Below, piece by piece: positions 1,120 through 57,647 of a stretch of 64,000 bases of DNA. Under the pieces are notes generated by a model. That model ran no database searches and was not told the origin of the DNA. It saw only the letters and a program-made list of their open reading frames with translations. This DNA comes from Siphonodentalium dalli (Eukaryota; Mollusca; Scaphopoda; Gadilida; Siphonodentaliidae), in NCBI GenBank assembly GCA_032622095.1, contig CP136065.1, positions 156,927,577 to 156,991,576 on the forward strand, read 5' to 3'. The position numbers and the translations under genes were made by a program. How positions within the stretch are numbered: the first letter of the stretch is position 1; each line of letters begins with the position of its first letter.

Positions 1120-4100
1120 CTGAAAAAACAAAGTAAATAGAATAATTTCTGAGATTTCTCAAGGATTTCAACCAAGAAATTATGAGAGATTGTTAGAAAC
1201 ATTCTCAACACAGGTGGGTTGATACAATTGGCCCAACAAATAAGGGTAACTTCGTTTGGTCTCTTTTCATCCTAAGAAATGAACATAATTACTGTTACAC
1301 AAGCTTGGATATAATGTGAATTTAATGACACTATCGAGCCAGGATAATTAAATTCATCCTCTGGGGACCTCATTCTGCTTAGGCCTCATCTTCTGGGAAG
1401 TATCTGTAGTCTCAAATTAACATTGTTTTGATTTACTTTTTGCCTTCTGTTCAGTTTCTCGAAATTTGCAGAAGATATTCTACATAATCAATGTGACTAA
1501 TAGGTGAACATCACCAACTTCAGCTCGAGAGGGTGAATTTGGTGATACTAGCCCATCATGCAGGATAGTGTTACTAAATTCACCTTCAGAAGACCTCATT
1601 TTGTCAGACACACTATATCCAGGCTTGCTGTTACAGGTATCACAACAAAAATGGATTTGCCTGCTGGAAGCTTTATCTTTGGAGAGAAGATATCTGATTG
1701 ACATAATCCACCATGTTATGTTATGTTCCTTTATAGTGTGGTTCACTTTGTGGAATAATATATAACATAAAACACCAATGTTTGAACACAATACACATTT
1801 ATTTAGTAAAGGTTAAAATTGTATCACAAATCATGTTGGAGCATTGAAGAGAAATAAGCCAAGTGAGCACTCAGAATAAGTAAAACAATTGAGTTTTGAT
1901 AAAGTTTCAGTAATGCCCAAAGTAATCGACTCCTTAACCATTGTAGAATTATGGGTAACTTTTCAGGATTTAGTCGGAAATATGGCTTGTTGCCATTCAT
2001 CGGAAAGCTTTCCCCGAGGAGAGCTTCCGATGAATGGCAACAAGCCATATTTCCGACTAAGTCCTGAAAAGTTACCCATAATTCTGCTGTGGTTAAGGAG
2101 TCGATTACTTAGGGCATTACTGTATGTTTATATTGAGATACAGAGCATGAATCTTACATTCTTCGAATTGACTCTTCTTTCTGAGATTTTTGTTTCTTTA
2201 AGTTGTCTAGCTCTGACTGCACTTCAGACTGTAGATGCAGAACCTTCATCTCTGAGCTAGAAGCAAAAACAGACAATATGTTAACCCTTTCATCACTGGA
2301 GCTTCCTGAAATTCTGTGAAAACCCTGTGCCAATGCATATATAAGAGAATGCATTGGCCTAACAATATTTAGCTTGACCTTGCAAGCCAGTGCATTCTCT
2401 TATATATGCGAGGCTCATAAAATATCCCATTGGACGCTCTTGAGACCATTCTGGTGCTGAACATCCACATCAAATTGGATTGATATCTGATAACCCATGG
2501 ATGATATATCTGCACTAACAGACAGCCACTTCTGTATGCCACCCCAATTTCTTTGAAACAAGGGGTATAATAACCAGTTTTCACTCCAGAGCAGTCAGGG
2601 GTGGTATTGTAAAACAACAAGCTGCAGTATTGATATCATTCAAAACATGTATCATTTTAATATGACATCATTAGATACACATTGTTGAGAAATAGTACAG
2701 ATGGTGTCAAATATGTTCCAGGCTACACAATTATTGGGAGAACAGTTGCAGTGTCTTGGAATATGTATGTGGAAAAATGTTCGTCACATCATAAAAAAAG
2801 TTCATGTATATTGACTATAGTCAGTTTGGAACTGAAATACAATATTGAAACAGTACGTAAAATAAACAAATCAATATATCGCAACAGCGATTTTATCATC
2901 TTAGTCAGGGAGCCAAACTCGAGAATGTTACTTTCGTTAAACTTGGAGGGTAGAAGCTGACAACAGGCTAATTTCTAGTCACATAGACCCAATAAACACC
3001 CTCAGCCCTGTTGTCACCCTCTACATCGCATATTTTACGAATTTTAGACGTTTTAAAAGTGTCGTTTTCTAGCTAAAATATTGACAACGAACGTTATGAT
3101 GTCGGCGTTCCGTAGACGTTATAGTGACGTCATGAATCGATCGTAGGATAATTGATCACTTACCTGGATAATTTTGACTTAGAAATGCACCGTTAATTCG
3201 ACCAAACCACAATTTGTGTAAGTGTGAGCAAATAATCAAATAATTTGTTGATGCATGAAATGAAATTATGGCCCAAAACAAAGTTTATTTTTCAATATCG
3301 TGTCCGTACGCATCATTTGTTGGTGTCAAAAAGTCAAATATCAGACGACACAGCGTTCACGAGTCTGTGTGTTTATATGATTATATGTCACATATTGTAT
3401 CAAGAGAAACACATATAAGTGTCATGTACGACATATATTTTATAAATATGTCAATAAATAAAGTGATTTGCACAGGTAGTAAGCATGTTCTCTAATTTCG
3501 TGCAATTTTTCAAATTCACCCCAAGGTCCTCGCCGATTTTTTTTGTAAAACTACGGAACGCCGATTCATTCATAATTATAAGCCAGCAAATGGCTGAAGA
3601 TGCGATTTCGACCGCTGTTTATACATGCGGGTGTTGCGTTGTCTTAAGTATATCTTTATTGCCTCCTTCTATGGAGATATTGAATATATTACACTATTAA
3701 ATATGTACAGTAGATATAATTATATGGTTTCTTAGAGAAAGAACATGAATATTGAAGATATTTAAAGTATTTTAGCTCTGAATGCTTGCCTATGCGTCAG
3801 AGTGTATAAGGAAATACTCACGATGGCATACCATACCCCGTACTAATTAAAAACTGCCATGAAATAGGTTGTTTTTTCATGTTGATGGGAAATGTGAACT
3901 TAAGCTTAATTTTGGCTGGACATAGTCAATAGTTCAATTTAAGCCACTTGTTCAGCGTAGAGTGTCTGATGAGATTTTCACTTTTTTGTTGAACATTGTT
4001 TTGTTTTTGTTTTGCGTTATCTTTGACAATTTTGTTTTGTTTTGTTTTGTTACACAAGATTTTGATGAAAACAACTGCATAACGTGGAAGAATTTACAGA

Positions 4101-7100
4101 AAAATGGTGGGACAAATACAGTGAGTATACATTTAATTCCATTCAGTTTTCGTTAATATTTTTTCCTGTTCATGTTCGGTATATTTTGCCACTTTTTTAT
4201 TACTATTCCTTAAATAATTAAATCCTTAATAATATGAATTTGTTTACTTTACAGATTAATCATGGAGCCCGATGCAATTCTCCCTTCTAAACGTCGAAGA
4301 ATAGAAGATGACCTGTTATGTGATCGATGCTTCATATGTCAGGACTCCCGAAACATTCAGAGCTTATCGCTTGCTACGCCGGATGGTCTTGAGAAATTTG
4401 CAGGGTGTGTTACAGAAAGGAAGAAATATGTTAACGAAGATAATAAATTCTTCGACGTGATCACCCGATTTGAAGCTACGTGTTTTACCATCAATGTTAA
4501 CAGAAATGTATATTGGCATCGATCATGCTACGCGAGTTTCACGAGCCGCACAAATATCGATCGATTGAAAGCACGGTCTTCTAGGAATTTGACACACACT
4601 TTAGCAAATGATGAAAATAACCCTATCAACGAAATTAGAACATCTCGAACTTCAATTACGCCTACTGACTGGGACAGGTGTCTGTTTTGCCAAGTTTTGG
4701 AAAAGACAACAAAGTTGCATAACATTGAGACCACAGAAGCTTCAGACTTCATCATGCGACACTCCAGTAAGGATCAGACGCTTAGATATCGACTTGCAGG
4801 TGTCGTCGACCTTATAGCAGCAGAAGCCAAATATCATCTGCGATGTTACAATGGTTTTAAAAAACGGAGTTTGAAAGAATCACCTCCCGCAAATATTCAA
4901 CACGATGAAATTATCTTCGCCGAAGTCATGCAGGAACTTTGGCTGGGCATCAAAAGAGGTGAAATGTACTCACTCATTACAGTTTGGACACGATATAGCG
5001 AAATTCTCATGTCACGCCATAACAAAGATGCTGGTCTCTTCAGAAGCAACCGGTTCAAAGAGAAAATTAGAAAACATCTGGGAGACGCTGTCGGATTTAT
5101 TCGGCCTATGCATATGACTGAATCTCTTCTCATATATTTCAACTCATCAGCTGAAGATGCCCTGAGGGAGATTGCTGAAACTTCGCTCATTGATGATGGC
5201 GATATTCTACTTCCTCGTGCAGAATACGATATGGATGCTGAAGTTATAAGCTGGCTCTATCGTGTAGGTGTAAAGCTTCACAGCGATTGCGAGGATGTGA
5301 AAGGACTGGACGATATAAGCCTGATAACATCTGATGCAGCTGAAAAGATCGTGCCTGAAAGTTTGTATTTGCTGCTGTATGTAATATGTAAGGGGGATGT
5401 TCCACAAGATGAAGGTGACAAATTATCTGAAAAGGATGCTGCATTCCGAACCAAGCTACTCAGCATAGCACAAGATATTGTGTTCGTACAATCAGGAAGC
5501 AGAAAGCACACACCAAAGCACATTGGACTCGGAATGGCGATTCACCAGGCTACACGGTCCAAACACCTAGTGGAGCTCCTACATGCCGCCGGCCATTCCA
5601 TAAGTTACGACACAGTTCTTCGTGTCGATACAGCGATTGCCAACGATGCTCTTCAGCGTTACAGTGATAATGACAATATTGCAATTCCGCGGAACTTTGT
5701 TGACATAAAATTGCCTGGCTATATCAGATATGCCAATGACAATATAGATATAAACGAAGAAACAATAGACGGAAAGGACACGTTCCATGCCTCACAAAGT
5801 GTGGCATATGCACGTTACGAATGTGGTACCACCGCAACCCAACATAATCCGATACAAATTGGACGCTCACGGTCGTTTGATATTCCTTCAGACTATAATA
5901 ATATAATTGATTCAAACCTATATACAGGACAAAAGCCGGATCCAGTTTTCTTAGGTGACACTAGTAATCTCAAAATCCGATGCCTAAATGACGAAGAGGT
6001 GACGAAAGAGGCAAACAAAAAAGATCTCCTGTGGATTCTGTGTCGTGCACACCAGGAAGCACATCAGCATGTTCCCAGCTGGACAGGGTTTAACCAGAAG
6101 ACAGAAGGAGAAGGATGTGATAAAACTGTTATTGGACACCTTCCACTTATCAACGAGCCTGCACATGACTTCGACACATTGTGGACTGTTTTGTGTCGAT
6201 CTGCTGCCATGACATTGAAACTAGGACAGAAATATACAGTCATCACGTTTGATGAGGCGCTCTATTCTAAGGCCAAGATGCTCCAGTGGCACTACTCGGA
6301 TGCTCTGAAGGACACAGTCATCATGCTTGGTGGATTTCACATACAGATGAATTTTTCGAAGGTTAGTAAGTATTCATTGGAAATAATGTTCAATGGGTTG
6401 ACTTGTAAACATATAAATGTAGAGTACACAACAACTGTAGTTTTCAATGAATTGTATAGTTGTTACCAAAATGTGGTCATATGTCGTTATGTAAGCTGTG
6501 TTCGCGTGACCAAACATCATACAATGTTCCATGCATATATTACATATAACGATAAAATCAAGGGAGGTTTTCTCAGAGACAATATAGACCAATGGTGTTA
6601 TCTATCTTCAATCGTGTTCCGAAAAAAATACGTCGACAATTCAGTGGACGATTTGTACATTCGCATGCAGCTGTCGAATTTACACAATAACTTTTCATTT
6701 TGTTCTGATTAATTATGGCATCAAGTATTAGACAATTTTTTTCATGTGTTATGATGTAGAATGTAGATTTCCAATAAAATCAGCGTGAACATTGGCAGTT
6801 TAAATATGGCCAACATATAATATCTATCTACATTTTTCAGGTCATTGGCGAGTTCATGGAGAACTCCGGTCTCAAAGAAATCTGGACAGAGTCTGGCGTG
6901 TATGGTGAGAATACCGCAGGTAACATCATGAATGGGAAGTTGTGGAACAGGGTGATTCGTGCACACAAGATGACGTATGAGGCATTGTGGCGGTTCAGAT
7001 TACCATCATTCCTGACTTGGGTGCGAGAAGATCCGAAGCGGGACTGCACATCAGAAATAGCAGCCTACACAACGACCATCTGCGACGGGTTTGCCGAAAA

Positions 7101-10100
7101 CGATAAGTCCAAAATCATGAAGACAATTGAAGAATCTCTTCCTGATGTTGGTAACCTGCTAGACATGTTGAAGGAATACGAAGCGAAGCGTAACACCGAA
7201 GATCCCACTTTCGCATATTGGAGTAAATATGGGCAGTTAGTCGAGATTCTCATCCGTTTTACAAGAGCTGCCAGAGAGGGAAGTTGGCAGCTGTATATGA
7301 GCTCGTTTACAGATATGATGCCATGGTTTGCTGCCTTCGACCACGTGCATTATACTCGATGGGGCACGGTATTCCTGTCAGACATGGTCGCCCTTCAACA
7401 CACAGCGCCCAGTGTGTACAAGGGATTTCTTGATGGGGATTTCGTGGTGAAGGAGACTACCAACCGATTTAACCAGTTGCCAGACGACCAGGCATTGGAA
7501 CACATCAACAGATCGGGGAAGGTTGCAGGCGGGCTTGTTGGTATTACACAGAACGATCCCGCTCGTGAGCGATGGGGTATTTCGTACAACGAGAGAGCTG
7601 ATCTGGCTCAGGCGACGAATGCCATGCTTGGTGTGAATACCGATGACTACGAAGACAACGACGACATACAGACAAAAGAGATGGGACAGAAGAGAGTGCA
7701 GCGAGACAATGAAGATGTCCTGAAAATCAAAACCCAATTTGAAAGGTAAATAAAAATAATAACAAATAAAAATAATAATAAAGCGAACAGACTGAAATCG
7801 CCTGCATTCTATTATTATAGTTATTGCGTTGAACATTTGTTTTCCTTAAATACTTCTGAATACTTTGCCCAAATTTAACCCTTTCAGTTCCAAGTCCGAT
7901 TTTTGTACAACCCATATTTCTTTAATCATTTTTCAAATTTATTGATTATAATAATGTGATACATTGATGGAAAGAGCTCTAACAGCTCTTTCCATCAATA
8001 TATCACATTATTATAATCCATAAATTTGAAAAATGATCAAGGAAATATGGGTTGATACAAAAATCGGACTTGGCACTGAAAGGGTTAAGGAAACATGCAT
8101 ATATAATTTTGGAAAATATTTTGAGATTATGAAAAACAACCAAGCCTTACTTAAATTTAATATGTTTTTATGATGTGTAAGTCATATGTATATATTATAG
8201 TATTGGCTGTAAGTGTCAATATGCGGCGTGCATCTTTAAAATCATTGTCGACCTTTGAAATGTACATGTAAGTACTACACGTACATGTATTACATTGTCA
8301 GAATATATATTGTCTGAAGAAGTGAATAAAATAAATCCTGTGAAATACGGCTGGTAAGTATATATGTTGCCTCTTTCTTAAATTTCAGATTCAGTCATAG
8401 TGCTCAAGATCTGATATCACTAACGACGGGTGATATCGCAACAGCGGATATCAGAAAGGACCTTCTGGGTGCCGAAGCTACTGGTATAAAAGTAATCGAT
8501 GACATAGTTTCGAACAGGATAGTTACCAAAAACAGTACTATTCACGATACCATCAAACAAAACAAGCTGAAAACATTCGCATCTCTCTACATTATGCCAG
8601 TGGCCAACGCCAAACAGAAGGGCGCAGTCGTAAAATCTGACCGTGATCTCTTCCAACGTATGATTGTCGCAGCGGATGCTGGACGAAATATTGATGTCGA
8701 GGAAATAATATCTCATGAATTGTCCAGGTACCCACTCTCAATTGCCACCACGGATGGCAAGTTACGAACAGCTACCAAGTCGGACCTGGTACCCATTCTC
8801 ACCGACGGAATAACATGCAAGGAATTCCCGACATCAGACAACAAGATGTGTTTAATCATAGATGCCATGATGTTAGTGCAGTCAATAGGCAAACCATCTA
8901 AAGCGCACAATTTCGGTGACCTGGCTGATTGCTTCATCAAGACTGTCGACTCTTATTTTTCCAAAGAATGCGACAGGGTAGATGTTGTATTTGATCGGTA
9001 TCAGCCTCTATCTATAAAGGGTTCCACTCGAGACAAACGGCAAGGGTCCACACATGGGATTCGTACTATAATTGAAAACCGGCTAATTCATCTTCCAAAG
9101 AAATGGAGCTCCTTCATAGTGCTCGAAGAAAACAAGTCGAATTTATGCGAATTCCTGTGTGAGCAAATGAAGCAGTATGGTAAGTTCACGGGAGAGGTGA
9201 TAGTTAGTGGTGGCTTCAAACAGATTGATAGCGTCTATTCTTCAGCTGGAAATGACACAACATCCTTGTCCGGAAACCACGAAGAAGCAGACACTAGAAT
9301 AATACTCCATGCTATACACGCAGGTTCAATTGGGTATCAGCGCATAGTTGTCAGCTGTCAGGACACCGACGTCCTTCTGCTGTTGATTCATTTTTCGTCT
9401 AAACTACCAGAAGTCTGGATGAAATGCGGCACAAAATCCAAGCGTAGATATATTCCCGTTGACAAAATTGACTGTCCTGCTTCTGATGAGCTACTAGCTT
9501 TCCATGCAGTTACTGGATGTGACAGCACCAGCCAGTTTTCATCTATCGGCAAGAAGACCGGCTGGAATGTGTTTTGCGATAATAGTAGTTCAGATCTTCT
9601 GAAAGGGTTTGGGGTGTCACCGATGCCATCTGATGATACACTGAGCAGTGCTGAGTCGTTCGTTTGTCAGCTGTATTGTCCAGGAACCACACTCAGTTGT
9701 ATCAACGACATCAGATGCCAATCCTTCAGAACTATGAAGAGAAGTGTCGACCAACTTCCACCAACAAAGGATGTACTGTTACACCACCTGAAGCGTGCAA
9801 ATTATCAAACGTACATCTGGCGACATTCTGATGTTTCGAAAGTGGAACTTCCGTCACCTTCCGATTGTGGATGGGAGATAAGTGGAGAGGTTTTGAGACC
9901 AGTCTTCACAACAGTTCCATCTGTGTTGCCCGGTTGTGTGGAGTTACTCCACTGTTCTTGCAAACAATCCAGTCGTTCATGCAGTACCAAACATTGTGGT
10001 TGCAGAAAGAGGGGACTGAAATGCACGGTCGCGTGCAAATGTTTGGGATTTTGTTTAAATCCGAACAATTAATTTATGCTAAATCCTACTCTTATGTATA

Positions 10101-13100
10101 CATGTAATATGTTACATGTCCGAACAACCTACAGTATATACTATAGTATACACTTTACTATATACTATAGCTCTGGAAAGTATTCATGACTTTTACATTG
10201 TCTAAAATTAATCTAATTTAAATGATGCAGTATAAGTTAAAGGTACTCAATCCGATCAGAGGGTCTCCATATCATCAAGACACAACAACAACATTTCTTC
10301 AAAATACGCTTCAGTTATCAGAATCGATTAATTGCAACAAAATAATGCTAACCATTGTCAACTATATATATCAAATTTCCAAAAACGTGCATTTTATTCA
10401 ATGAAATATGGCCGTATTATCACTTGATTATTCATGATATTTAGCCGTATTACCACATGTTTTTTAGAGTTATCCATCTTCATCCGTAATTTTGAACGAG
10501 ACCATCCATTTGACGGCGTGTTTCTGGGCCACAAAGAATAGAAATAACAAACTTCAAAAATCGATATCTGATCACTCTGAGTTTTAATGGGTAGGTTCCT
10601 CGACTCGATTCAAATATTTGTTATCCCCGAAGCCAAAGAAATAGTAATTTAGGGGTGTTTAATCGGATTGAGTACCTTTAAGTTGGTGATTTTGATTTGT
10701 TATGAAAAATGTTCTTATAATTGAATGGGGTCTTTTCAGTTATGACTATAAACGTATGCTCATTTTGAAATCAAAACGGTCATGTATACTTCACAATTAT
10801 TATTTATAGTAGACTCTGGACTAAAATACAAATGCTGATCAGCCTTTCCTTCAAAACACATTGTTAACTACTTGGGTTTCTCTATGCGTATGTGTACAGC
10901 TCAGCTCATAATGTCTTGCCTTAATGTGGCCTTCGTTAAGTTCGCTTGGCATTTTTCTTGCCCTCTTCATGAGAGGGCAATCCGTATTTTGAGCCCCATT
11001 AACTGCAATGACATATAATTTGAACTGTATTCCTGAAAACGGAGACACATAAGCAGTTAACTGTCTGCGTTGGTTTTAAGTACCAGGTGAATGATTTTAT
11101 GCGACACCTGATCAACATTGACATGCCAATTCACAGGACCTTGTAACGTGCTCCGCTATACCCACCCACCCTTATACCGTGAGGTGTGTGGGTACGCTAT
11201 AGCGGAGCGCATTACCAGCTCCTGTGGCCAATTGCAGCTAATATTGATATATTCCAATTAATAATACCATCACACAACCTACTAGTGTGTAAATTTTGCA
11301 TACATACCATTTTTTCTGCCAAAAAAAACTGCAAAAATAGCTTTAAATAGGCAGATACTGTGAGGTTTATGGGTATAGCAGAGCGCATTACAAGCTCCTG
11401 TGGCCAATTCCAGATGGTATTGATCTATTCCAATTGATAATACCATCACACAACCTACTAGTGTGTAAATTTTGCATACATACCAATTTTTCGGCCAAAA
11501 AACTGAGAAAATAGCTTAAAATAGGCAGATTTTTTGTAATGACCTTGAAATGACCTTGAAATGACCTTTTAAGGTCACCCCAACAGTGACAACAGGCCTG
11601 GTGTTGAAGCATGTCATATGCACTCTCAGTTGAAACCAGTTGTTTGCTTCTACCCCAAAAGTTTAACGAACTCGATTTTAAGGGCCTTTGGTGGAGTTGG
11701 CTCCCTGACTATCTCATAAGACAGTTACAATCCAATAGTTGAATACTTCAGTGGACTGCTGATTGAAAGCAGTCTTTCTCGGTCTCTCCGATTCCTTCTA
11801 GTACCATTCTCTTATCTTATTGTTACCAATGACCACAGAGTGACAGCGACGGTTGTATTTTGGACTGAATTTAGTCAAATAAACTCACGAAATGTCACAT
11901 GGACCATCGTACATATATGCATTACATAAATATTTTTGTGCACAGCCAAGAGGACATTCTATTTGCAGAAGTAACACTATGGGCAGTGTTCGCGCTGGAC
12001 CGAAAAAAACTTTAGCCAAAAGTTTAGCCAAATGAAAATTTTATTAGCCAAATGAAAAAAACTTTAGCCAAATGTTTTTAGCCAAATTAATAAAAACTAT
12101 GGCCAAGTTAAATCATCGTTTTCTGGTCGGTTCACAATAAATGACTAAAACGTCAAATCTAACAGACACAGGTAAAATACACAATAATTTAACTAATTTT
12201 GATGAACTAGAAATATTTTTATATATATCATTTATTAAAAATTAATATTCTTTATGTGAAAGAGTGATTTGGGGGGGGGGGTAACCACCCGGGATTGTCC
12301 TTCTTAATGTCATTAATATTTTAATATCAATATGTTTTATATTAATATCTTTATAAAAATCATTAAACATTAATTATCCTTGCGAAAATATTTAAGTGAC
12401 ATCTGGAAACTAATAACGAATATTGTTACGCCATTATCACATTACAATCTGTCATAAAAGCATGCATATTATTTTGAATGTATCGGTATTGACGACAAAT
12501 AGCCCCAAAATATCTGTCGTGATTCACATTTGGCTGATTAAGCTATTGTCTTACACTTGGTGCTCATAAACCTTGACCATCATAAATACAATGCCATCAT
12601 AAACATGCATTGTGCAGGAGTCCCGTGAGTGACCAGACAGACAATGGGGGATTAGCGGATTAAATGTAAAATAATTTTTTTTTGCTGTTTTGTGCAGAGT
12701 GACGGGTTTCACTTTGTACTGTTCGCGATCGAGTTCCCTTTGTACAGTCGGCGATATATTCACACTTACGATGTTTTCGGACTAGATCGTTCACATCACA
12801 GAATTGAAAACCCACTTGCCAAAAATTCATGCTTTCAGTCTCCATTTGGGGTCAAAAAAAAATTTAGCCAAAAGTTTAGCCAAATGAAATTTTTATTAGC
12901 CAAATTCGAAAAATATTAGCCATTGGCTAATTTGGCTACCGACAGCGCGAACACTGACTATGGGTGATTGTTGACTGCTCATGGTCAATATTAATTATGA
13001 TTCTCTTATTCACGTGTTCAATAGTTCACTAAAAATGTTCTGTAATTTTTTTTGTGTCATAAACCACAGACAGCCCAGAATCATCCATCTCATCCCAATT

Positions 13101-37100: not shown

Positions 37101-40100
37101 CGGAACCCATATTCGAACTTGGCCTGTACCTTTAGCTGGAAAATAACCATACAACTTTGGTTCAGATCAAATAATCCAAACTGGAGTTATCAGTCAGAAA
37201 GCAAAAATGTTAACAGACGGTAAAATTCTAAGTTGAAAAAGAGCCCTAATTCATGTAGATATAATTGGACGAAACCTATATTCGAACTTGGCCTGTATCT
37301 TTAGCTGGGAAATACACATACCAACTTTGGTTGAGATCAAATAATCCAAACTGGAGTTATCGATCAGAAACCAAAAATGTTAATGATTGGACAGATAGAC
37401 GGACGGCAGACACATGGACAGACTGATTACTGATTTCTCAAAAGGGCGTATAAAAACTCAATGTATTAGGCCAACCAAAATTAATTGTTTCTCAGGCAAT
37501 TTTTACTTCAGATCAGCGAGGGAGGTAGGATTGATTTTTTACTCCCAATCGCAGTACTACAATCATGCATAAGGAGCCTAAATTGAAATATTAGAGATAT
37601 ATAATGTAAAGGCTAACTCCCCGCTGAGTATTTTGTTGGCCATTTGGCCCAGTATCAGACCATCTATCAGGGAATCCACTGATCATGTTCTTAATTTTTT
37701 ATTTTTGTACGAAATATTGACAGAAAGCAACATGTTTTCCTCACCGATATTCTGAATGTTCATATGCATTAATTAATGTTGTTGGAAGCGAGGCCCATTA
37801 AGTTTAAAACTGTTACCTCAATCCCATGCATTAACTTAGGTGCAAATAGATGTCTACATAAACGAATGGATGTAATGTAATCCAAATGCAAATGCTACAT
37901 GTCTGGTGTGTCAAGAAATCAGGAAACAGGTGGCCATTTGTTATTCAAAAACATGTGCGAAATAGTTTGTTATGAGAAGGGAAGGTCCTCAGGAATTTCA
38001 TATGGAGCTCTGAACACATGCACAATGTACAGTAATGCCCTAAATAATCGACTCCTTAGCCACAGCAGAATTATGGTTAATTTTTCAGGATTTAGTCAGA
38101 AATATGGCTTGTTGCCATTCATCGGAAAGCTCTCTGTATTTCCGACTAAATCCTGAAAAATTACCCATAATTCTGCCTTGGTTGAGGAGTCGATTATTTA
38201 GGGCATTACTGTATGGGGATTTTATTTAGCATAGAAGAAGCCCAATATGTCACATGGTGCAACATAGCATGCCATTAGTTGAGATAATCTTTGGATATAA
38301 TTCTGCATTATACCTATGTTTGTTTTCAAGCGGAAGATGTCTGAAGCCTTCTTCTCTATTTCATGCAATCTGTCCTACAATGGAAAAACATACGTTGAAA
38401 ACAGGATTGTAATTCAAGTTGAACCAAGCCTGATTATAGTGTGTGTCATTTGCAGAATGAGGTCCCCAAAGGGTGAATATAGTGACACTATCGCACAAAG
38501 GGAGCCTAGCATATATAAGGGAATGCACAGGCTTACAATATCAAGGTAAATATTGTCAGGCCAATGTATTCTCTTATATATATGAGGCTCCCTATGGGAG
38601 ACTCGCATATAAGAGAGTGCATTGGTATAGGGTTTTCACAAAATTTCAGAAAGCTCCAGTCATGGAATATTTGTTACATTTGAGGACCCATCTCCAAAAT
38701 ACTGTTAGAATATTTATATACATTTTTTTATACTAGAAATAGCTGAAATGTTTTAGAGGGAAAATAATAAATTATCTGATATATAACACAAAATACAAGA
38801 AAAATTCTGAAGCAATTTTTCAGTGTTTGAAAATTGTTTTCATATGCATTGGCATCCAGAAATTAGTCAGACATAGTGGTGGAGTAAATTCTGTTAAAGT
38901 GTTGTTGTTGTTGTTGTTGAATTCTTGGGTTTGGAAACATGAAAGCATATTTAACAAAATGAAAACAAAAGTATATCCATCAGTGATTTTTCAAAGATCG
39001 CGGGTATGGATTTTGGAGAAATTGTCACGTGACTTCTGGTTAGCAACTGTGTGGAGATTACCAAAGCGCGGAATCGGGAATGGACCATAGAGATGAAAAT
39101 TTAATTAGCTACTTCACAACTTACGAAGAATTCCTAAGTGATTTAGGCCTATAAGTTTCATTTAGACCGATTTCGTTGGTTAGCTTAATGAAAACCAGTG
39201 AAGACGTCATGACAAGGTTTCTGACATCATTTTGGATTTTGGGCCAGAATCCAGACAAGATTGCAAAATCCACGACAAGTCTTGTCTTGTCGTCTCCGTC
39301 GGGACCACTGCCTGATGTTACATACAATATTCTTAGCGTTATGTCGCCGATAAAAGGAAAATTTGAGGCACAGCATTTGTGGTTGCTCCACTTCGTGTCA
39401 TTCATATTACCTGAATTGGTTGTAGTTTCTCTTTGATTTTCTCCATAGTTTCTTTTGAGCTGGCATATTTAGCCTCGATTTCATTGAGATCCCCTTCAAG
39501 CTGCAACAAGTAAAATAGACGAAACAGTTAAACGGTTACCAAAATATTTCTATACTTAAAGATGCATTATCCGAATTAACGCTCCTAAATTACTATTTCT
39601 TTGGCTTCGGAGGTAAAAAATATTTAATTCGAATCGAGAAACCCACCCATAAAACCTCAGAGTGATCAGATATCGATTTTTAAAGTTTGTTATTTCTTGA
39701 GATGTGCAATTGTTTGTGACCCAGAAAAACGTGGTCAAATGGATGGTCTCAGACAAAATTGCGGATTAAAATGGGCTAAAATAAAGTGGTAATACGGCCA
39801 AAACAAATTATACTTAACTGATAATACGGCCATATTTTGTTGAACGAAATGTTGATAAATAGCATGCTCTGAGAAATTTGATACCATAGTTGACAGTGGT
39901 TAGCATTATTTTGTTGCAATAAATCGATTCTGATAACTAAAGCTTATTTTGAAGAAATGTTGTTGTATCTTGATGATATGGGGACTGCCTGATCGGATTG
40001 AGTACCTTTAAATGTAAACTTTGACAGTAACAAGAAAACATCTCTACCTTTATAGTTTGTTTAAATGTATGGAAGGTATTTGCGATGTGTACAACAGAAA

Positions 40101-43100: not shown

Positions 43101-46100
43101 CTGACTGCCAATAAATTATACAAGCATCATGAAGCATGTTAGTCACATCGAGTAGATTAGTTAATGGAATAAATGTTTTAAACAAGCAATGAAATCTCTT
43201 TCCCAGTTTTATCTGTTATGTTACATCTTCAACAGGAAATCTATCTATATTTATAATTGTGAAAAATGGGAGAGTCCCCGAGAGTCTAGGAAATTTCTGG
43301 ATGAACCTGCAAGTGAAACATTTTGATGACGGCCTCAACAAGAAGAATGAATTGAAGACTGCAAATTTTATTTCTGAGTTCACGGACCTGATTAATAAAT
43401 ATGACAGATACCAACGTCAGCTCATCATGCTGGGGTACTTCATTTTACACTATGATTCTATCACTAACACAGACGTTGTCACTCTAAAGTTTATACGACA
43501 TGATTCGGACATGACACAACTTGTGTCTTCATGGACACAAAACTCTGGGTTATCAACTGGATTAATAAAACAGGGTTATCACATGTGATAGTGATCTGCC
43601 CATCCAGGATCACACCATCAGTGATGTTGTTTCCCTGATCATCACTTTATATATCTTAAAATGAACATCACTTGCCCACCACATGCAAAGAGAACGATTT
43701 CTACATGTAATTTCAAATCTATTGAAAAGAGCTGGAAACATTGTTAGTAGTATTTACAGCACCCCCAGTAAAACTCTACTGGAATGTTCCTGAATCTCCG
43801 CTGCATTCTGGACGAACATACACCATTCGTTATATGAACTGTATCCAGTCGCCCCTCCATCCTGTGGTTCTCAAACGCAATCAGATGTGAAAGTAGAGTG
43901 TAGTCAGGCTGAGCGAAGATGGTGTAAATCAAGGCTCACCATTCACCACATAATGTTCTTTGAAAAGTCAAATCAAGTATACACACTAACCAATGAAAGT
44001 TTCAATGGCACTGTAGCTCAACTTGGGAAGGAGTTAATCTTTTGCTGAGCAATGAATTGATAAAGAAGAAAGAAAGTAAACTAGATGTCACCCCGAAGAT
44101 CCATATGAAGTTTGGTGATGATCGGATTAGGGATGTGATCTGTAGGGTGCGCCAAAGGATTTAGTCATGTTTTTCAACGAATTTCGGTCAAAATGGGAGG
44201 CTCCCATCTATAGGTAATCCCGAAGATCCATATAAAGTTAGGTGATCATCAGATGAGGGATGTGGTCTGTAGAGTGTGCCAAAGGATTTAGTCATGCAAA
44301 GAGTAAAATCCAAGATGGCTGCCAGAGGCCATGTTTTTCATAGCTCCCATCTAGAGCTGATTCTAAACATGCCTGTAAATTTTCAAATCAATTCTGCAAT
44401 AAATGCTGGTTGCGGCATGTGCCGATGGATTCAAATTTGAAATACAAGATGGCTGCTGGCAGTCATGTTTTTTAACAAATTTCGGTCAAAATAGGAGGCT
44501 CCCATCTAGAGGTCACCCCGAAGATCCATATGAAGTTTGGTGACGATCGGATGAGAGTTGTGGCCTGTAGGGTGTGCCAAAGGATTTAGTCATACAAAGA
44601 GTAAATTCCAAGATGGCCGCTGGCGGCAATGTTTTTCAAATTTTTTTGGACAAGATAGGAGGCTCACATCTAGAGGTCACCCCAGGCTCACATTTAGAGG
44701 TCACCCCGAAGATCCATATGATGTTTGGTGATGATCAAATGAGGGATGTGGTCTGTAGGGTGTGCCAAACAGTAAGTCATGCAAAGAGTAAAATTCAAGA
44801 TGGCTGCCGCAGGCCATGTTTTTCATCGAAAATCGTTCAAATTTGATGGCTCCCATCTAGAGTTGATGCTAAGCAAGCCTGAAAACTTTCAAAACAATTC
44901 TCCTATAAATGCGGACTGCAGGATGTGTCAATGGATTCAAATTTGAAATCCAAAATGGCTGCCAGCGGCCATGTTTATTAACAAAGTTTGGAAAAAATTG
45001 ATGGCTCCCATCTAGATGTCACCCCGAAGAACAATATGAAGTTTGGTGATGATTGGATGAGGGATGCGGCGTGTAGGGTGAGCCAAAGACGGACAGATGT
45101 TAAAATGGACACATAGACGACAGATGCTAACCCATGGCGACAGCTCAAACTTTACAAAGTAAAATTGAGCTAATAATAAAAACTGATTGTCCACAAATCC
45201 ATAGATTATTTTTTCATTTGCATTTATGTTGTGTATAATATGTAAAGTACGGTGGCTGGATGAGGACATGGGAAATTTTATTTTTATCTCGTTTAAACGA
45301 GATAGCAGATGGGAAATTTTATTTTTATCTCGTTTAAACGAGATAACTTATCTCGTTTAAACAAGATAAGAGATGGGAAATTTTATTTTTATCTCGTTTA
45401 AACGAGATAAATTATCTCGCTTAAACGAGATAGCAGAAGGGAAATTTTATTTTTATCTCGTTTAAACGAGATAGTTATAATACAACAGTTACTAGTGGCC
45501 AGTCCAGACGGTTGCGCTCGTATATAGGTGGTACCCAAACACCACCCCATCCCATCACCCATAGTATATTGTAGTTACCCACCCACCACCACATCACGCC
45601 ACGCATTGTATCTTATGCGCCGCAAGCGCTCGTATATAGGTAGTTACCCACCCTTCACCCACAGTATATTGTGCGCCGCAGGCGCTCGTATATAGGTATA
45701 GTTACCCACACACCACCCCATACCATCACCCATAGTATCCAATGCGCCGCAGGCGCTCGTATATAGGTTGTACCCACCCACCAACCCATCACGTCACCCA
45801 TAGTGATGGGATGGGGTGGTGGGTGGGTAACTACCTATATACGAGCGCCTGCGGCGCATAAGATAATATGGGTGGCGGGAAGGGATGGTGGGTGGGTAAC
45901 TACCTATATACGAGCGCCTGCGGCGCACAATATACTATGAGTGATGGGATGGGGTGGTGTTTGGGTACCACCTATATACGAGCACCTGCGGTGCATAAGA
46001 TACTATGGGTGGTGGGATGGGGTGGTGGGTGGGTACTACCTATATACGAGCGCCTGCAGCGCATAAAATACTATGGGTGACGGGATGGGGTGGTGGGTGG

Positions 46101-49100
46101 GTACAAGTTATTCCCTATCCATTCCCGGTGCAACCGTCTGGACTGGCCACTAGTAACTGTTGTATTATAACTATCTTGTTTAAACGAGATAAGTTATCTC
46201 GTTTAAACGAGATAAAAATAAAATTTCCCATCTGCTATCTCGTTTAAATGAGATAAGTTATCTCGTTTAAACGAGATAAAAATAAAATTTCCCATCTCCC
46301 TAAACGAGATAAGTTATCTCGTTTAAACGAGATAAAAATAAAATTTCCCATCTCTTATCTAGTTTAAACGAGATAAGTTATCTCGTTTAAACGAGATAAA
46401 AATAAAATTTCCCATGTCCTCATCCAGCCGTAGTAAAGCACCATATGGGTACTATTATTATTATGAGGGAGAAACTTAATTTTTATCTATTTGGTCTGAC
46501 ATTCCCCACAAGTTACCCAGCATGAAAGTAGCCTACCATGAACTGTAATTTTTTTTATTAAAAAGAGAACATATTTGAAAGGTAATATTTACATGTTATA
46601 TTAAAGATGCATTATCTGAAATAACGCTCCTAAATTACTATTTCTTTGGCTTCGGGGGTAAAGAATATTTTATTCAAGTCAAGGAACCCGCCCATCAAAG
46701 CTCAGAGTGATTAGATATCAATTTTTGATGTTTGTTATTTCTCGAGATGTGCAATTATTTGTGGCCCAGAAAAATGGTGTCAAACGGACGGTCTCAGACA
46801 AAATTGCATATGAACATGGATAACTCTAAAATCAAGTGGTAATATGACAAAATTTTGTGATACTCAAGTGATAATATGGCCATATTTCGTTGAACAAAAT
46901 GTTGATAAATAACACGTTTTTGGGAAATTTGATACCACGGTTGACAGTGGTTAGCATTATTTTGTTGCAATTAATCAATTTTGATAACTAAAGCGTATTT
47001 TAAAGCAATGTTGTTGTTGTATCTTCATGATATGGGGACCATCTGATCGGATTGAGTACCTTTAATCAGCTATATAATCATTGTTGAACTGTAATTGAGT
47101 CCAACTCAAATGCACAAAATCTCTTACCAGTTTGAGTCTTCTTGGTGGCAGAATATGACATTCTGTAAAACAGCTTTAGAGACTCCTAATGAAGTTATCA
47201 TCTGTAAAGCAAAATTCTGATTGTATAACAGCTCTAATTATGAAAGCTGCTTATGGACATCAGGTCAATCTGAACTCATGAGACATGCCAAATGATCTAG
47301 GGCTTAGGAAAAAAGTAACATATACATCATATACTGGGGCTCAGAAAAAAAGTAACATATACATCATATACTGGGGCTTAGAAAAAAGGTAACATATACA
47401 TCATATACTGGGGCTTAGAAAAAAGGTAACATATACATCATATACTGGGGCTTAGAAAAAAGTAACATATACATCATATACTGGGGCTTAGAAAAAAGGT
47501 AACATATACATCATCCATATGCAGAGATTTGTTGGTCTAGACAGGATCCACAAAGTGGTAGAAATTCAAATATTACCTCAATTTCTAGATTTGGAAGCAA
47601 TTAGCATCTCATATTACATTGATAACAAGATGAAACAAGAATCATCTCCACCCTAACAACAGCGTGTGAGCCTATTTCAAAGCCAAATCAAAAGTTTCAC
47701 ACTTAAAAGTATGGTAAATTAAAACTCACAAAATATTTTTCGGCAATATATTGACAGCATCTATTGAAATCTGGAAGATCAGTTTTGGTAATCTCTTAAT
47801 ATGATTGGATATAGTTTCTCGTTATCCGACCATGTATATGAGAATACAATGAGTGAAAAAATAAGATTTTGAAGTGATACCTCATTATTTATTTCAGCAC
47901 ATTTTGAAGTGATACTCCTCTTTTCACCGTCTGGACCTCGCCTCGTTATTACACCATCCAGTGTTTTCATCTCAATTTTCTTCAACTGAATTGGATTAAA
48001 CATGGATTATAACAAAGAATGAAACTGTAGATATGCAGTATTTTGGTAAAATTTGTTTTTACATTAACCCTTTCATGACGGGAGCTGCACTGGTGCAACA
48101 TTAAAGACCCTGTACCAGTGCACTCTCTTATATATGCGAGTCTCCCATAGGAAGCCTCACATATATAAGAGAATGCACTGGCTTACAAGATAAATGTTGT
48201 TAGGCCAATGTATTCTCTAATATATGCAAGGCTCCCTATGGGAGATGCATATATAAGAGAATGCATTGGCACAGGGTGTTCGCAAAATGTCAGGAAGCCC
48301 CTGTCATGGAAGGGTTAATAGTTCAATAAGGAGGATCTTGAATAAAAACAGTCAACACACTCATTGTTTAATAGCTCGCAAACATGGGAGCCTCGGATAC
48401 GTAAGAAAATGCATTGGCACAGTGTTTACGAAAAAATGTCAGGAAGCCCCATTCATGGAAAGGTTAATGGATCGGATCAACAAGCCTTGAAATAGTGTGT
48501 CTGTCATTTGCAGAATCAGGTTCCCAGAGGGTGAATTTAGTGATGCTACCCTGCATAGCGGGCTAGCATCACCAAATTCACCCTCTGGGAACCTCATTCT
48601 GCTGAGGTGTAAGCAGAATGAGGTCCCCAGAGGGTGAATTTAGTGATGCTACCTCGCTATGCGGGGTAGCATCACTAAATTCACCCTCTGGGAACCTCAT
48701 TCTGCAAATGACAGACACACTATTTCAAGGCTTGTGGATCAATAAGGAGGAGCAAGCAGAAACAAGAATCTTCCAAATAATTAAGCTCTTGTTTTCTTCA
48801 GAACAGAGTAAGAACCTACTAGCTTTACAAATAATTTTAATATAAGTTTTCTCTTTTTTGTGCTGCTCCAGTGGCTATTTTTTGGTATATATTCATTGTA
48901 TCTGTGGAGAGCACAACTTGAATGTCAAACAAACACATATCATGACTGTTGATAGTCCAAACCATGCTCGCCATCTGTAACTATAGGTCAACATATCTCA
49001 ACATTAGCTTCTGTAGATGTTTAGATGTCAGAAAGAGATGTTTCAATGGAATAACAGTGTCATTTGTGATTGCCATTAGTTAAAATACAATATTTTTCAA

Positions 49101-52100
49101 AATAAGTAAAATATATATCTCCTAGAAGTATCTTGCCCACTGAACTATATGGTATATTCCCATTTATCTAGGAATGGTCAATGGAAAACGGTACGGAAAT
49201 TCTATGGTACATTTTATCATGGTTTATGACCTACCAGAGGGCCCAAACGAAACAAATAGTCATGACTTGAAGATCCTGCAAATAAAGTAGATAGTTTCAG
49301 AAAGATGTAGATGGAGATTACCTCCCCTTCGGAGCTTAGAGCTATCATTGCATCAGCTGAGTACTTGTTGAATAAGAAATGTACAACACCCCACCCCTCC
49401 CCCCCTCCGGAAGGGAAGAAATATCTATTTCCTGATGGAATAGAAAAAGAAAAATACTGTGTGATTACGAAATAATGCATTTAACGGGCTAATCCCTGTG
49501 CAGACAAAGACAATAAGGAAAAAACAGTGTTATAAGGGACAATAAGAAACAACCAGAGGCAAAGGCCTCAAATTATGAAGGAGATCCCTACAAAAACAAT
49601 AGAACCAATCCCAAAATCAATTATTGAAGGGGACAGTGTCCTAGTACGAGATCTACATGTAGTCTGAAGAAAAAACAGCTACAAGATCAAAAAGGGCCCA
49701 GTCACCCACTAATCCATGAGATGCCCTTGTCTATAAAGGATTTTGATATCGTTTGACCGATAATCTTTACTAGAGACCGGGAACAGATTCTCGGCAAAAT
49801 AGTTGATTGCACAAACCCTGTAAGATAGCCAGAAGAAAGTCGAATGGATAGTAGCCTGTCACACTTCTGACATATAGGGAACCATACATGTAATTTGGAA
49901 CAAAAAGAATATTTTGTAGGAAATCTAAAGTCCCTTTGATGACAGAGCACCCTGCAATGCTGCTTTCGTAAAGCACCAGAAGAATCAAATGTGCCAAGAT
50001 GACCCACTAATGGAGATTTAAATAGGGCCGTGAAGTATTAGCGTTTACTATAAAAGGAAACTGTGATTTTGTCCCAAATAACATTGCGATATATGGTTGT
50101 TACTGAAAACTATTTTCCTTTCGAAAAAGAGAACGTAAAATCACATGTTAAATGAGAGATAGAAAATGTAGCGTTTACTGTATAACCAGGAAGTAAAGGA
50201 GTAATCTATTCGTGGAATGACTCATTGGCATGTGTCCCGTCGATTAAGTTCCTGCCTTCCTGAGTTTGCCATAACATTGAGCGAATTACAGGCTGATGAT
50301 ATCCAGATTACTGCCATGATTACCAAAGGAGACACCAGCACGTGGACACGAGCTCGCCCATACAAACAATTACAGAACATTTGTAATGAACCATGGAATA
50401 CGCGAACAAGAGTATCCTAATGCATCATTGAACATTAAGGACCATGAGCCGTCATTCAACAATTTATTGGTTTAAATGAAACCCCAAAATACCACCGTCG
50501 CTGTCAATGTGTCTCGTGTCATTGATAAGAGAATGGTACGAGAAAAAATCAGAGTAACCGAGAAAGGCTACTTCTAATCAGCTGTCCGCTAAAGTATTCA
50601 ACTAATCAGCTGTCCGCTAAAGTATTCAACAAGTGGCTGCAAGCCTTAAGATTCAATGAGCATCACCAAAACAATTCTCATAATGATTCTCGCGAAACTT
50701 TTCAAACTACAGTGCTGTATGACTAACTTGATGCAACAGTCGATTCTCACATAAGTAAACGTATTTTGGAGCCTGGCATTGAGATATAATTTACTCATGG
50801 TTCCAATAAGGCTTTGCAGTTCCAACATGATGATATTCAATATGTTGACAGGTCGATGGTTCAAGGTACCCCTTCTGGGACGGATGGGGTGCCCCTCCGA
50901 TTGCACCTTGTTCTTGAGCCAACCATCGCCCGAAGTGCTAATCTAGTTGGCGGATCATATGATCTGGAATCCTACACCCAATGCTAGTGAATAGCTTGCA
51001 CGAGGGGAAGCATCCGGAAAGGATCTTCTTCTGTCTGTATGAAGTGCGCACACAATTATTAATATATTAACCATTGTGTACCGACAACAGTGCCAATAAG
51101 AAGAATTATGTATTAGACCCAAAGGCCGATGTCACCGAAGTCTGACCCGCTGTGTCGCCAATTAAGCCCGAGCGGGATGGCTGGTATAGACCTCACTTGA
51201 ACCGCCGAGACCATGTCACAAAATCAAGTAAATAAATCCAATAGTCGTCCCAACGGACTGATCAAAGAGAACTTCCTGATTATGAGAATGTGTATTGCAT
51301 TGAGTAATGTGAATCGTGATGAGAGAAAATCAGCTGCTTTCTGAAGATGAGCATCTGTCCAGTATGTATACTGGACTCATATAGTTACTATTAACTACTA
51401 AACAGAATTGTAGTTAGAATTGAATGCAACATGCAGATAAAATTATGCGGATGCACCCTTGTAAAATATATAACTCACATGTACCATATTTACAAGATAT
51501 TCTTGATACCTAAATATGGGTATTTGTCAACCAGAGGTGGTATTAAAGTCAAGAATGTTAACGGTCGCGATTCATATAGTGACCCAGTGTATCATTACCG
51601 CCCTTAATGATATGACTGACCAATCATCCAAAGATTATTCATGAAGACTAGCGACACAGGCGACACTCTATTCCAGCAATGACCATGACCTCGCAGGAGC
51701 CGGATGGCACATCGAAAGAAACAACAACTTATAAAGCAAGGAGTTGAACTCTGCACAATACGAGAATAATGGCTGCATCAGAGAACCCCGAACAACTATC
51801 TGACCTCCCTCGTGAGCATATGTATGGGTGACCCCAAAGGAATGTCCAAAGCCTTTTCCCCTCTGGTGGAGCTACAGCTCGTACCGATCCCAATCTCCAT
51901 CCGTCCGAACTAACGATGGGTTGTTATGAGGGGCAGTATCCGAAGCATGCCTCCTACTCGAACAGCATCGGGGAACAAATTCTTGTGCATTAGTATTCAA
52001 ACCCGAAGGTACTGGTTGCTGTTGATCAGAAGGCGGCCAGTAACTGGACATGGAGTTGGCCAACAAGGAAGAAGCATGCTTGGGAATTTCGGCCCCAGCC

Positions 52101-55100
52101 CAAGCCCAGCAGGGACCAAAGGCATATAGGATGATAATAGGGACAGGGTATCGAACCCCCAGCAGTGCTAACACTGAGATGGTGACTTGTAGCGATGGAC
52201 GGCGTGGTTCAAATGTTAGATGAGAAACCACGGCCGTACCTGGGCACGCCAATGGTCGACACGAGGGAGCAGATTGACATCCCGTACGATAGTCCAATGA
52301 GCCCACTATTGGTGGATGGATGGGGTGCCCCTCCAGATCCTTGTTTGAGGTAATTATCACCCCGAGTTGCTAAGCCAAAGAGGGGACCACTATTCTCTAG
52401 TATCCTGGTCTCAGAGGCAGCATGACCCTCGAAACGAGGAGAAAAGCATCTCTAGGGGAGCTACAGGGAAGGGATCTTCTGTACCTGGTATTACATCGTG
52501 TAGCAGTCCTTGTCCTGAGAAGGTATAGTGTGATTGCACTGTCAACACCCGTCATGTCTGTTTCACAATTGCTATCAATCAAAAATACACCTGTTATTTT
52601 GTGTTATGTTGATAAGCACCTTGGCTGTGGCGACTAACGACAATACGCTAAACGATTGTGACTGTCGAATAACCTTGGACAGGCTTGGTTTGCACGATAT
52701 CAATTTTTAACACAATGGCAATATTAAATGACAATATTATTAAAGGAATATTATTCTGAAAAATGTTTAGTACCTTGTTTCAATATACCAATATTATGTC
52801 CAATTTGCCCAAATAATCTTGTGTTTGATCGCTCATTTTGTTTTTATAACGAAAAAAAAAAACATTCCGAAGAATGCCGAAGATCTTATGTTGCAGACGA
52901 AGTCACGTGATTGAAGTCACTTGATCACCGGTCGGTGCGGTCACATTATATAACATGTAACAATGACGTAGCGATAAGGGAATTCTCGTTACCATCAAAA
53001 CAAAGCAACCTTACTGTTTGCCAGCTTATCTATGTATATATGACTTTGTGCATATATTAACGACATTTTTGTGTCAATTATGCATAACAATATAGCATGA
53101 TAAAAGCGTTCGAATATCCAATTATGACACTGTTCGAAGGAGGGATAACATTTCCAAATACATGTAAACGAACTTTCGATACATATGCTTTATATACCAG
53201 TCAAAGTCATGGCAATTTCCGGTTTAAGAAAGTAATCACATATAAAAACGCTCTTTAGTCGCACCATATTCAGGAATACGATTAACAGGGAACGCTCTTT
53301 ATTGAGTCATGGTGAAGGAAAGTGGGGACACGTTTTAGAATAGTTGTCATCGTGAATATTTACTAATTACATCAACACATGTTAATACATGTACATGAAC
53401 TTTCGATAAACATGCATTATATACCCGTCAAAGTCATAGCAATTTCTGATTTATTATACGCTCTTTATTCGCACCATATTAGGAATACGCTTGACAGGGA
53501 ACGCTCTTTATTGAGTCATGGTGATACCCACGACTGGGCGCTACAGCAAATTTATATTCTTGACAGGAGTTGTTTTTCTTGGCATTCTTGACGGTGGTCG
53601 GTTTGTTTAATGTGGGTATGCACGTTGTGCTCAAAACACCTTTTTTTCGAAGTGGACGGAATAAATTCTGGACCATTTCGTCGGCGACCACTTTAATAGT
53701 TTATGATTTTGCACAACGTGTTTTCCCACAGAAATCCCGCCAAATGTCACCCAAATTGAGTGTCACTATACCGGCCACAGCCGAATAGAGTTCACATGTC
53801 GGCTCGTGTTTTATTATTTTTGACACAGTGTTATCTACACCGCTCAATCGGCCTTTACACCGCGACTCAGATGACGTCATATAGGTAAACACAATTAACT
53901 CCGACTCCGATTCCGTGTTTTTAATTAGACTACTCATTTAACGTCATATGAGGATTTGCGACGCAGATAACTGACAACCGGTGGGGGTATTATTGATTTA
54001 TTTCTCGGCTTATTTATTACGCGATTGTTATGCGACTTGGATCATTGTGATCATAACAGGGGTGGCTTTCCGATAGTGTTTTGTTGTATTCATCAGGATA
54101 GCAATCTTTTAAGTTGAAAAAATTTAACAAGTGCAATTTTACATTCAGGATGTATGCATATTTCAATCCTATTTCACAAGCCTCTCCTCTAGTTAAATAC
54201 TGCTTCCGTCAGTTGTGCACTGGACGACGACTCTCATAGTATAAATAAACATTGTAGCGACAAAGCCGTCAGACAGCCGAAAGTAAGTCACCTAATTTCG
54301 TGATACCGTTATCGCACAGGCCTGAGCACGTGGCGCCTTCGCTTGGACCATAGAATGTATGCAATAGATTCTTGATAAAGATGAGCGTCTTTAGTCATAT
54401 CCCAATGTGCATCTATTATTCTGCCTTTCGGAGACAAATATTATGCCAATATATGGACAGATGCCATTATGGTGTATCGGCTGATTAAAAATATGGAAAA
54501 CAAAATTTATTTAAAACGAAAAGAGTGTCCACACAAAGCCGAATGACGATAATATAAAAACGCTATAAAAAATGTGAGTCCGCTCACGTAGCCTTGTGAC
54601 AACTGCACAAAATCAATAATAATCAAAGGAAAAAATGTTTTTTTTGTATAACACAAAAAACTGTTAACACTTAGCTTCATGTCCCTCCAATAGTCAACTA
54701 GGGGAAAAAAAGTGGGAGAATATTGCCTTGTCATCGAGTTTATATCGTTTGGAGATCACGTGGTCAGATTACAGGAGGTCATGAACCATGATAAAATGTA
54801 CCATAGAATTTTCATACCGTTTTCAACTCAGGGGTTTGTTAACCCTTCCTAGTTAATTGGGGAATATACCATATAGTTCAGTGGGCAAGATAACTTTGAC
54901 GGAGATAATGTATTTTCCGACATTCAGTGGTCTGACGTGCAATCTCACCGCAGCGGATGTCTCACCTTTTGAGTGGCTGTCATGGATCTCTGTACAATAC
55001 AATGTTGGCCGGACACATCCTGAAACTGTAAACGAACTTGTCCCTTCACTTCTCTTTCATGAGCAACCTTCAAAGAAGAGTTGGTACAACATACTTTCAT

Positions 55101-56518: not shown

Positions 56519-56698
56519 GGCGACTTACTGATATAAAGTGTAGTAGTTGTGTGAATGTGATGTACAATATTAGTTGACAATTGTAACGAGAGGCCGATCA
56601 CGATCGGCAGATGTTTAACCCATACCTTGGCGATAACGATTAGCTATTTTCATAAATCCTTACACCAACCTTTTCAACAATTCAAACCTTACTATTAA
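56519..56698 (-). promoter_or_regulatory. Sequence immediately upstream of the RAD50 start codon
   Basis: The 5' UTR should begin here, but no TATA box or CpG-rich promoter is apparent. Within 70 bp the sequence turns into AACGAGAGGCCGATCACGAT, shared with 35726, then a MITE. Repeats this close, together with the TATATCAG acceptor-like site at 56528-56530, suggest that the true promoter lies further right. Confidence 0.4.
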
Positions 56699-57099
56699 AG
56701 CTACTCGATCCGATTAAGCACCCCTCAGTTACTATTTATTTGGCTTCGGGGTAACAAATATTTTATTCAAATCGAGGAACCCATTCATCAAATTCAGAGT
56801 AAGCAGATATCAATTTTTTTAATCCATTATCTTTAACCACCTGGAATATTTAGTGGCCGTATGAAAGTCGATGAAGATGGATAACTCTAAAATCAAGTGG
56901 CTTTTTTGTGTCAGATATATGACAAAGCAGCAAACTTTCATTGTACAAAATGTTGATAAATAACAGGTTTTGGGCAATTTTATACTATAGTGGACTGTGG
57001 TTAGCATTATTTTTGGGCAATTAATCGATTCTGATAACTGAAGCGGAATTGTTGTTGGAATCTGATGATATGGGGACCATCAAATCGGATTGAGTACCT
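56699..57099. mobile_element. TTAA-flanked AGGTACTCAATCCGAT MITE, copy 4
   Basis: It is 401 bp with TTAA at 56695-56698 and 57100-57103. It is slightly shorter and more diverged internally than the other three. Confidence 0.82.
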
Positions 57100-57103
57100 T
57101 TAA

Positions 57104-57647
57104 GTTCACAAGTGGCATAAGCCTTATTGGGCACCTTCCATATGAACATGGATATGGCATTTGATTCCAACCTATAAAGTCAGTTTAAAATAGATATATA
57201 GTCTAGTCAGATTGAAAATAGATTCATTACATTGGATAGCATACTGTATGACCATGGAATGGGTAGGGTTAATTTTCTTCTAAGCTAAACATTGGAAAGA
57301 TATAATGTATGTAAACAGTGGAAATATAATTAAAGTTATGGTTAATATCTTCAAACCAATCGATACCAAAATCTATACAGGTGAAGAATGTATCAGCATT
57401 AACATGGATGCAATTATATATATAGTGATCATGTGAAAAATATCTAGTTATCACATTGTGTCAACAGGATTGGTGGAGGATGTTAATATTTTTAAGCAAA
57501 TAAACCAAATGACCCTCACTATGCAGGTTAGGGGTGTGTTATCATAAACTATGCCAAGAACTATAAACATAATCAATGGAAATATTTGAGTTATGAAATC
57601 GGATAGAATGGGGTTAATCTTACCTAAACTAATGAACTGATAAACAC
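57104..57647. other. Intergenic sequence without recognised genes
   Basis: AT-rich. Fragments such as GATACCAAAATCTATACAGG resemble the repeat at 61260-61600. Nothing coding was recognised. Confidence 0.4.

Follow-up and report, generated by a model that had tools for sequence, protein, structure and literature searches.

A probable full-length AcademX-type DNA transposon with a predicted FEN-like nuclease domain in the scaphopod Siphonodentalium dalli

What kind of transposon carries one long gene that joins a transposase-like core to a structure-specific nuclease? This question is raised by a 64,000-nucleotide stretch of the genome of the scaphopod mollusc Siphonodentalium dalli (assembly GCA_032622095.1, contig CP136065.1, positions 156,927,577 to 156,991,576 of the forward strand; hereafter the window), in which a sequence-only reading had recognized a transposon of unusual layout. 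The element spans positions 2902–11711 (8.8 kb). Judged by published descriptions, it is very probably a full-length Academ DNA transposon of the nuclease-bearing AcademX type, inserted with 3 bp of TCT. It is a good specimen of a described kind and not a new class.

The left end of the element (2902–2916) reads TAGTCAGGGAGCCAA, and its exact complement forms the right end (11697–11711), the termini being written in short as TAGTCAGGGAGCC. An exact 15-bp inverted pair is expected about twice in 64 kb by chance and is thus weak proof alone. When the window was searched for TAGTCAGGGAGCCAA with at most three mismatches, three matches were found, namely the two exact ends and one with three mismatches at 20007; in the same search, shuffled sequences contained 1.11 matches on average, and three or more in 7 of 100. 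The ends also pair inward as an imperfect repeat with several gaps, comprising 116 bp on the left (2902–3017, plus strand; exact for the first 15 bp) and 126 bp on the right (11586–11711, minus strand), with an alignment score of 43. This score was reached in none of 2000 dinucleotide shuffles (maximum 30) and was matched or exceeded by 6 of 1977 pairs of stretches drawn at random from the window, which are presumably dispersed repeats. The trinucleotide TCT adjoins both the left end (2899–2901) and the right end (11712–11714), an agreement with a chance of about 1 in 64 in a single copy of the element. The pair looks like a target site duplication (TSD) of 3 bp, apparent on one copy. Both the inverted ends and the possible TCT duplication that had been claimed earlier therefore hold. 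Apart from a nested miniature inverted-repeat transposable element (MITE), nothing else in the window matches the element as a second copy at E 1e-4. Close to the right end, on its inner side, a 176-bp unit is repeated 1.9 times with 90% matches (11198–11530), with inverted partners from 11132, and this is a possible subterminal binding region.

Between these ends, three exons on the plus strand (4262–6361, 6841–7745 and 8389–10072) splice into a 4686-nt frame of 1562 residues that is closed by one terminal stop and otherwise free of stops, as had been proposed. Exon 1 encodes residues 1–700, which include the zinc modules and two residues, D493 and D664, of a candidate DDE triad; exon 2 encodes residues 701–1002, codon 1002 being split; and exon 3 runs to the stop codon through the linker, the FEN/XPG-like nuclease and the CXC-like tail. 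Both introns (6362–6840, GTTAGT ... TTTTTCAG; 7746–8388, GTAAAT ... TTTCAG) show GT/AG borders. The relatives align across the first junction, which is gapless in 18 of 18, and many of them share a start similar to that of the query (ME or MD ... KR). A possible intron in the 5′ untranslated region (4121–4254, plus strand, GTGAGT ... TTTACAG) may lie just 5′ of the ATG, as suggested by reading the sequence only.

Residues 1131–1492 (8774–9859, plus strand) form a FEN/XPG/EXO1-like nuclease domain, in which D1160, D1204, E1301, D1303, D1327, D1329 and D1380 are kept in 81–82 of 82 homologues. All residue conservation counts refer to these 82 proteins of 1400–1700 aa, drawn from 246, the others having been dropped before counting. 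From their order and neighbours (VFD, EEAD, DTD, GCD), we take these residues, by sequence and not by structural overlay, to be the counterparts of the seven acidic residues of FEN1. The predicted fold of the domain matches EXO1, FEN1 and XPG, also in the relative P0008; EXO1 and XRN-type exonucleases are among its nearest matches, in addition to flap enzymes. Structure prediction gives good support to the FEN-like fold, and the full acidic set and fold expected from the sequence-only reading are both borne out. The likeness to FEN1, EXO1 and XPG lies in the predicted fold and the seven acidic residues; in contrast, identity is only about 8–16%, and the domain is fused here with a transposase-like core and a CXC tail. 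We further take the nuclease of AcademX to be of XPG type. In sequence searches of the PDB, the exon 3 protein returned nothing at E 1 and the profile of an 18-protein alignment (A1) returned two rows only, both HAD hydrolases at E 1.5, while NCBIfam gave five scattered rows (best E 0.052). Beyond DUF6589 and CXC, 19 Pfam families each appeared in one of 29 relatives (best Pox_D5, E 0.0038) and were taken for chance.

The candidate DDE core (5738–7500, plus strand) is split by intron 1 and overlaps the DUF6589 region of the relatives. Its putative triad consists of D493 (5738–5740), D664 (6251–6253) and E920 (7498–7500), kept in 82, 81 and 82 of the 82 homologues, respectively. The 208 Asp and Glu residues of the query have a median conservation of 16%, and 17 positions reach 95%: these three, the seven nuclease residues and seven others. 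In the model of P0008, the counterparts of D493, D664 and E920 are located on the expected strand, strand end and helix, and the strand–helix order fits an RNase-H arrangement in which the three residues may be catalytic. The query itself gave no DUF6589 row in Pfam at E 5; of 29 relatives, 17 gave a DUF6589 row at E 1 or better, some of them below the Pfam cut-off. Two VIA structure searches showed no transposase among their best 50 rows; since the nuclease fills these rows, this absence is no evidence against an RNase-H core. The strand-transfer core claimed earlier is thus partly supported: acidic residues are conserved, and strands and helices follow the expected order, but no fold match was obtained.

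The two CxxC...HxxC modules noted before are present and conserved, the first at 4328–4528 (C23, C26, H86 and C89, kept in 74, 74, 78 and 78 of 82) and the second at 4679–4846 (C140, C143, H192 and C195, kept in 81, 82, 82 and 82), both on the plus strand. At the other end of the protein, the nine cysteines of a cysteine-rich, Tesmin/TSO1-like CXC tail (residues 1524–1557; 9953–10054, plus strand) are each kept in 73–75 of the homologues, the remainder being nearly all gaps. Of the CXC domain as claimed, the conserved cysteines stand, but the Pfam CXC model scores 12.1 bits on the query (E 0.24), below its cut-off of 23.5.

A database search yielded 30 relatives, 17 of which (1514–1618 aa) cover 94–100% of the query at 32–44% identity, while one (P0030, 1608 aa) matches only 61% of it. 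The alignments comprised 18 (A1), 17 (A2) and 29 (A3) of these 30 proteins, with P0027 unused, and 14 proteins in A4. Two wider searches, each scoring about 8000 candidates that shared most words, were considered for the best 120 of 176 and the best 120 of 214 matches. Named relatives among the matches listed come from the corals Porites, Acropora and Oculina, the anemone Actinostola, amphioxus, fireflies, sea urchins, sea spiders, a crab, a whelk and an icefish; most matches are proteins without a name. Some are part of gene models in which they are fused to unrelated host genes, as in Nymphon (Mpv17-like, WRAP73 and Sprouty-related). As far as homology searches indicate, the protein family is not rare and its long homologues are numerous. 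In viral contigs, none of 17 pattern matches was confirmed by tblastn, phage records held no relative of the exon 3 protein, and 1 of 24 pattern matches in a prokaryote genome collection was confirmed, a fragment. In a contig of 3.4 kb recorded as a gill symbiont of Bathymodiolus brooksi (L001, 1104–1968), the C-terminal part of a relative is encoded over two frames, with 29% identity in the best segment; this contig is most likely mussel DNA in a bacterial assembly. Three relatives labelled as a Sedimenticola metagenome-assembled genome (P0038, P0047 and P0172) may be contamination of the same sort.

In the literature, Academ is cited to a 2010 Repbase report (PMC4455052) and counted among the DDD/E superfamilies (PMC9587614), a RecQ helicase is mentioned in it (PMC3627910), and Academ-1_NV appears as a named Repbase Academ protein (PMC9004415). 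According to PMC10045372, AcademX elements encode a nuclease and have TSDs of 3–4 bp, and AcademH elements of the same superfamily carry a helicase and 9–10-bp duplications. The element in the window encodes a nuclease in its FEN-like domain, is flanked in its single copy by 3 bp of TCT, and has terminal inverted repeats as in the Academ/AcademX type. The element was assigned to AcademX on account of its nuclease, its 3-bp duplication and its inverted ends; its core is also consistent with this type. No difference in kind from AcademX appears, the comparison being of features and not of sequences (PMC10045372). The earlier view of a non-standard layout outside any named superfamily is not sustained, because a nuclease-bearing Academ branch is on record (PMC10045372) and long homologues are numerous.

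Unlike AcademH, the element has a 3-bp flank, and no DEAD/Helicase_C or RecQ-type match was seen in the query or 29 relatives; Pfam showed no helicase family in the query and a single weak Pox_D5 row in the relatives. Kolobok elements with an accessory nuclease are alike in that a DDD/E transposase is joined or paired with a nuclease, which is of PD-(D/E)xK, DEDDh or His-Me finger type in KolobokE, D and P (PMC9587614). They were set aside because the nuclease here is FEN-like and of none of these types. KDZ/Zisupton elements have a KDZ-type transposase or CxC domains; they were set aside as well, no such family being among the Pfam rows for the query or 29 relatives, where a missing match is not excluding.

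Several observations weigh against the AcademX assignment or its supports. The placement is made by description, and only one copy of the element was seen. At 8.8 kb, it is longer than the 5565-bp mean of the curated elements from bivalves, where Academ has been amplified, as given in PMC10294476. A helicase is absent among the best 120 of 214 homologue matches, so that no link to AcademH was seen. In the rows displayed, the nuclease obtained modest Foldseek TM-scores of at most 0.40 (query length) and 0.58 (target length). The acidic residues E1112, D916, D405, D989, D496, D1200 and D183 reach about the same conservation as those proposed to be catalytic, and conservation alone therefore cannot single out the triad. 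With the P0008 model, 9 of the 50 best Foldseek rows were RAG1, at E 0.87 or worse and below unrelated SUMO E1 rows, and structure searches of this model gave no RNase-H fold match for the core. As a small point, the query is without a few residues of a variable linker at the second splice junction, including a Phe otherwise nearly invariant among 18 relatives, which may weigh slightly against the exact junction or may represent a short deletion.

If the element is of the AcademX kind, the question remains whether this copy can still move. Intron 2 contains a near-perfect palindrome of 214 bp with TTAA at both ends and CCCTTT termini (7875–8088), which we take to be a piggyBac-type MITE. Its arms share 99 identities, with 5 mismatches in 104 aligned bases and 1 gap, that is a difference of 4.8%, or about 2.4% per arm. 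A second MITE-like repeat with 23-bp inverted ends lies in the 3′ region, outside the coding frame (10234–10684), and has diverged copies, about 80–84% identical, at 39554–40011, 46623–47065 and, in pieces, 56695–57106. Of the apparent intactness claimed before, the open frame and paired ends stand, but two MITE-like insertions, both non-coding, have to be added. In simulations of random substitution that left out insertions and deletions, with 2000 runs at each level, the 4686-nt frame stayed free of stops 270 times at 1% substitution, 45 times at 2% and twice at 3.5%. Because the frame is open despite about 2.4% divergence per arm, it was probably maintained by selection, through transposition, after the palindrome inserted, unless the palindrome was imperfect at birth, as its use as a clock assumes perfect arms. 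Nevertheless, there is a considerable chance, somewhat short of even, that the copy is of the right kind but ageing and no longer mobile. The two nested repeats, the internal divergence of the terminal repeats and their unequal length are in favour of this, while the absence of any internal stop at such palindrome divergence argues against it.

The ends, the TCT pair, the open frame, the conserved residues and the predicted nuclease fold allow a mechanism to be sketched, in which the catalytic steps, their order and the DNA-binding roles are conditional. The zinc modules and the CXC tail would bind the terminal repeats. The D493/D664/E920 core would then nick the 3′ ends and attach them to the target DNA with a 3-bp stagger, which would give rise to the TCT duplication. 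Finally, the FEN/EXO1/XPG-like domain would cut the other (5′) strand or the branched 5′ flank and thereby free the element from the donor. DDE enzymes cleave 3′ ends and transfer them to the target, and FEN-family enzymes cut branched DNA. Since cutting of 3′ ends only would leave the 5′ ends of the element tied to the donor flanks as branches, a substrate of FEN type, second-strand cutting is the favoured role of the nuclease domain. In the main rival view, the donor 5′ strand is not the substrate; the nuclease would instead trim or repair gaps and flaps once the element has integrated, or process replication intermediates. This is a realistic possibility, in line with EXO1 and XRN-type exonucleases being among the closest folds; on the other hand, host FEN1 could already repair such gaps, which would leave less reason to keep seven acidic residues. 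In Tn7, TnsB is a DDE strand-transfer enzyme and TnsA a second nuclease for the 5′ strand. More tentatively, second-strand cutting may follow a similar division within one polypeptide, whereby the DDE core handles the 3′ ends only and the FEN-type domain sees the strand-transfer joint as a 5′ flap and cuts after joining. The likeness is one of working, with no homology claimed: TnsA is a protein of its own and a nuclease of restriction type, whereas the nuclease here is FEN-like and part of the same protein. In literature searched by the name Academ, which is not a full review, no experimental test of Academ nuclease function was found.

It is improbable that the element represents a separate, unnamed superfamily in which a FEN nuclease was acquired independently of AcademX. 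The element is set beside named Academ by description and not by sequence, and Pfam knows the core only as DUF6589, a name not found in the literature searched. However, nuclease, 3-bp duplication, DDE-type core and animal distribution jointly fit AcademX as described in print. That a host gene or domesticated transposase lies between inverted repeats by chance, as its long open frame might suggest, is scarcely credible and was set aside, because terminal inverted repeats and TCT bracket the gene and its divergent relatives are many, some in models fused with unrelated host genes as in Nymphon.

Elsewhere in the window, a minus-strand frame (51872–52369) contains a PAM2 motif (Pfam PF07145, E 0.0005, at the 20-bit cut-off) and is perhaps an exon of a host PABP-binding protein. 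Dense short palindromic repeats around TCTCGTTTAAACGAGA, with many inverted copies within about 1 kb, occupy 45326–46401, and several inverted GC-rich segments with GCCGCTGGCAGCCAT-like motifs lie at 57792–60554. At gathering scores, Rfam gave no match in the window.

Combined, the locus offers a copy of a nuclease-bearing, Academ-type element with an open frame, both ends and a flanking duplication, which suits a transposition test at the bench. If the nuclease cuts the second strand, this would be a little-known route of cut-and-paste transposition in animals.

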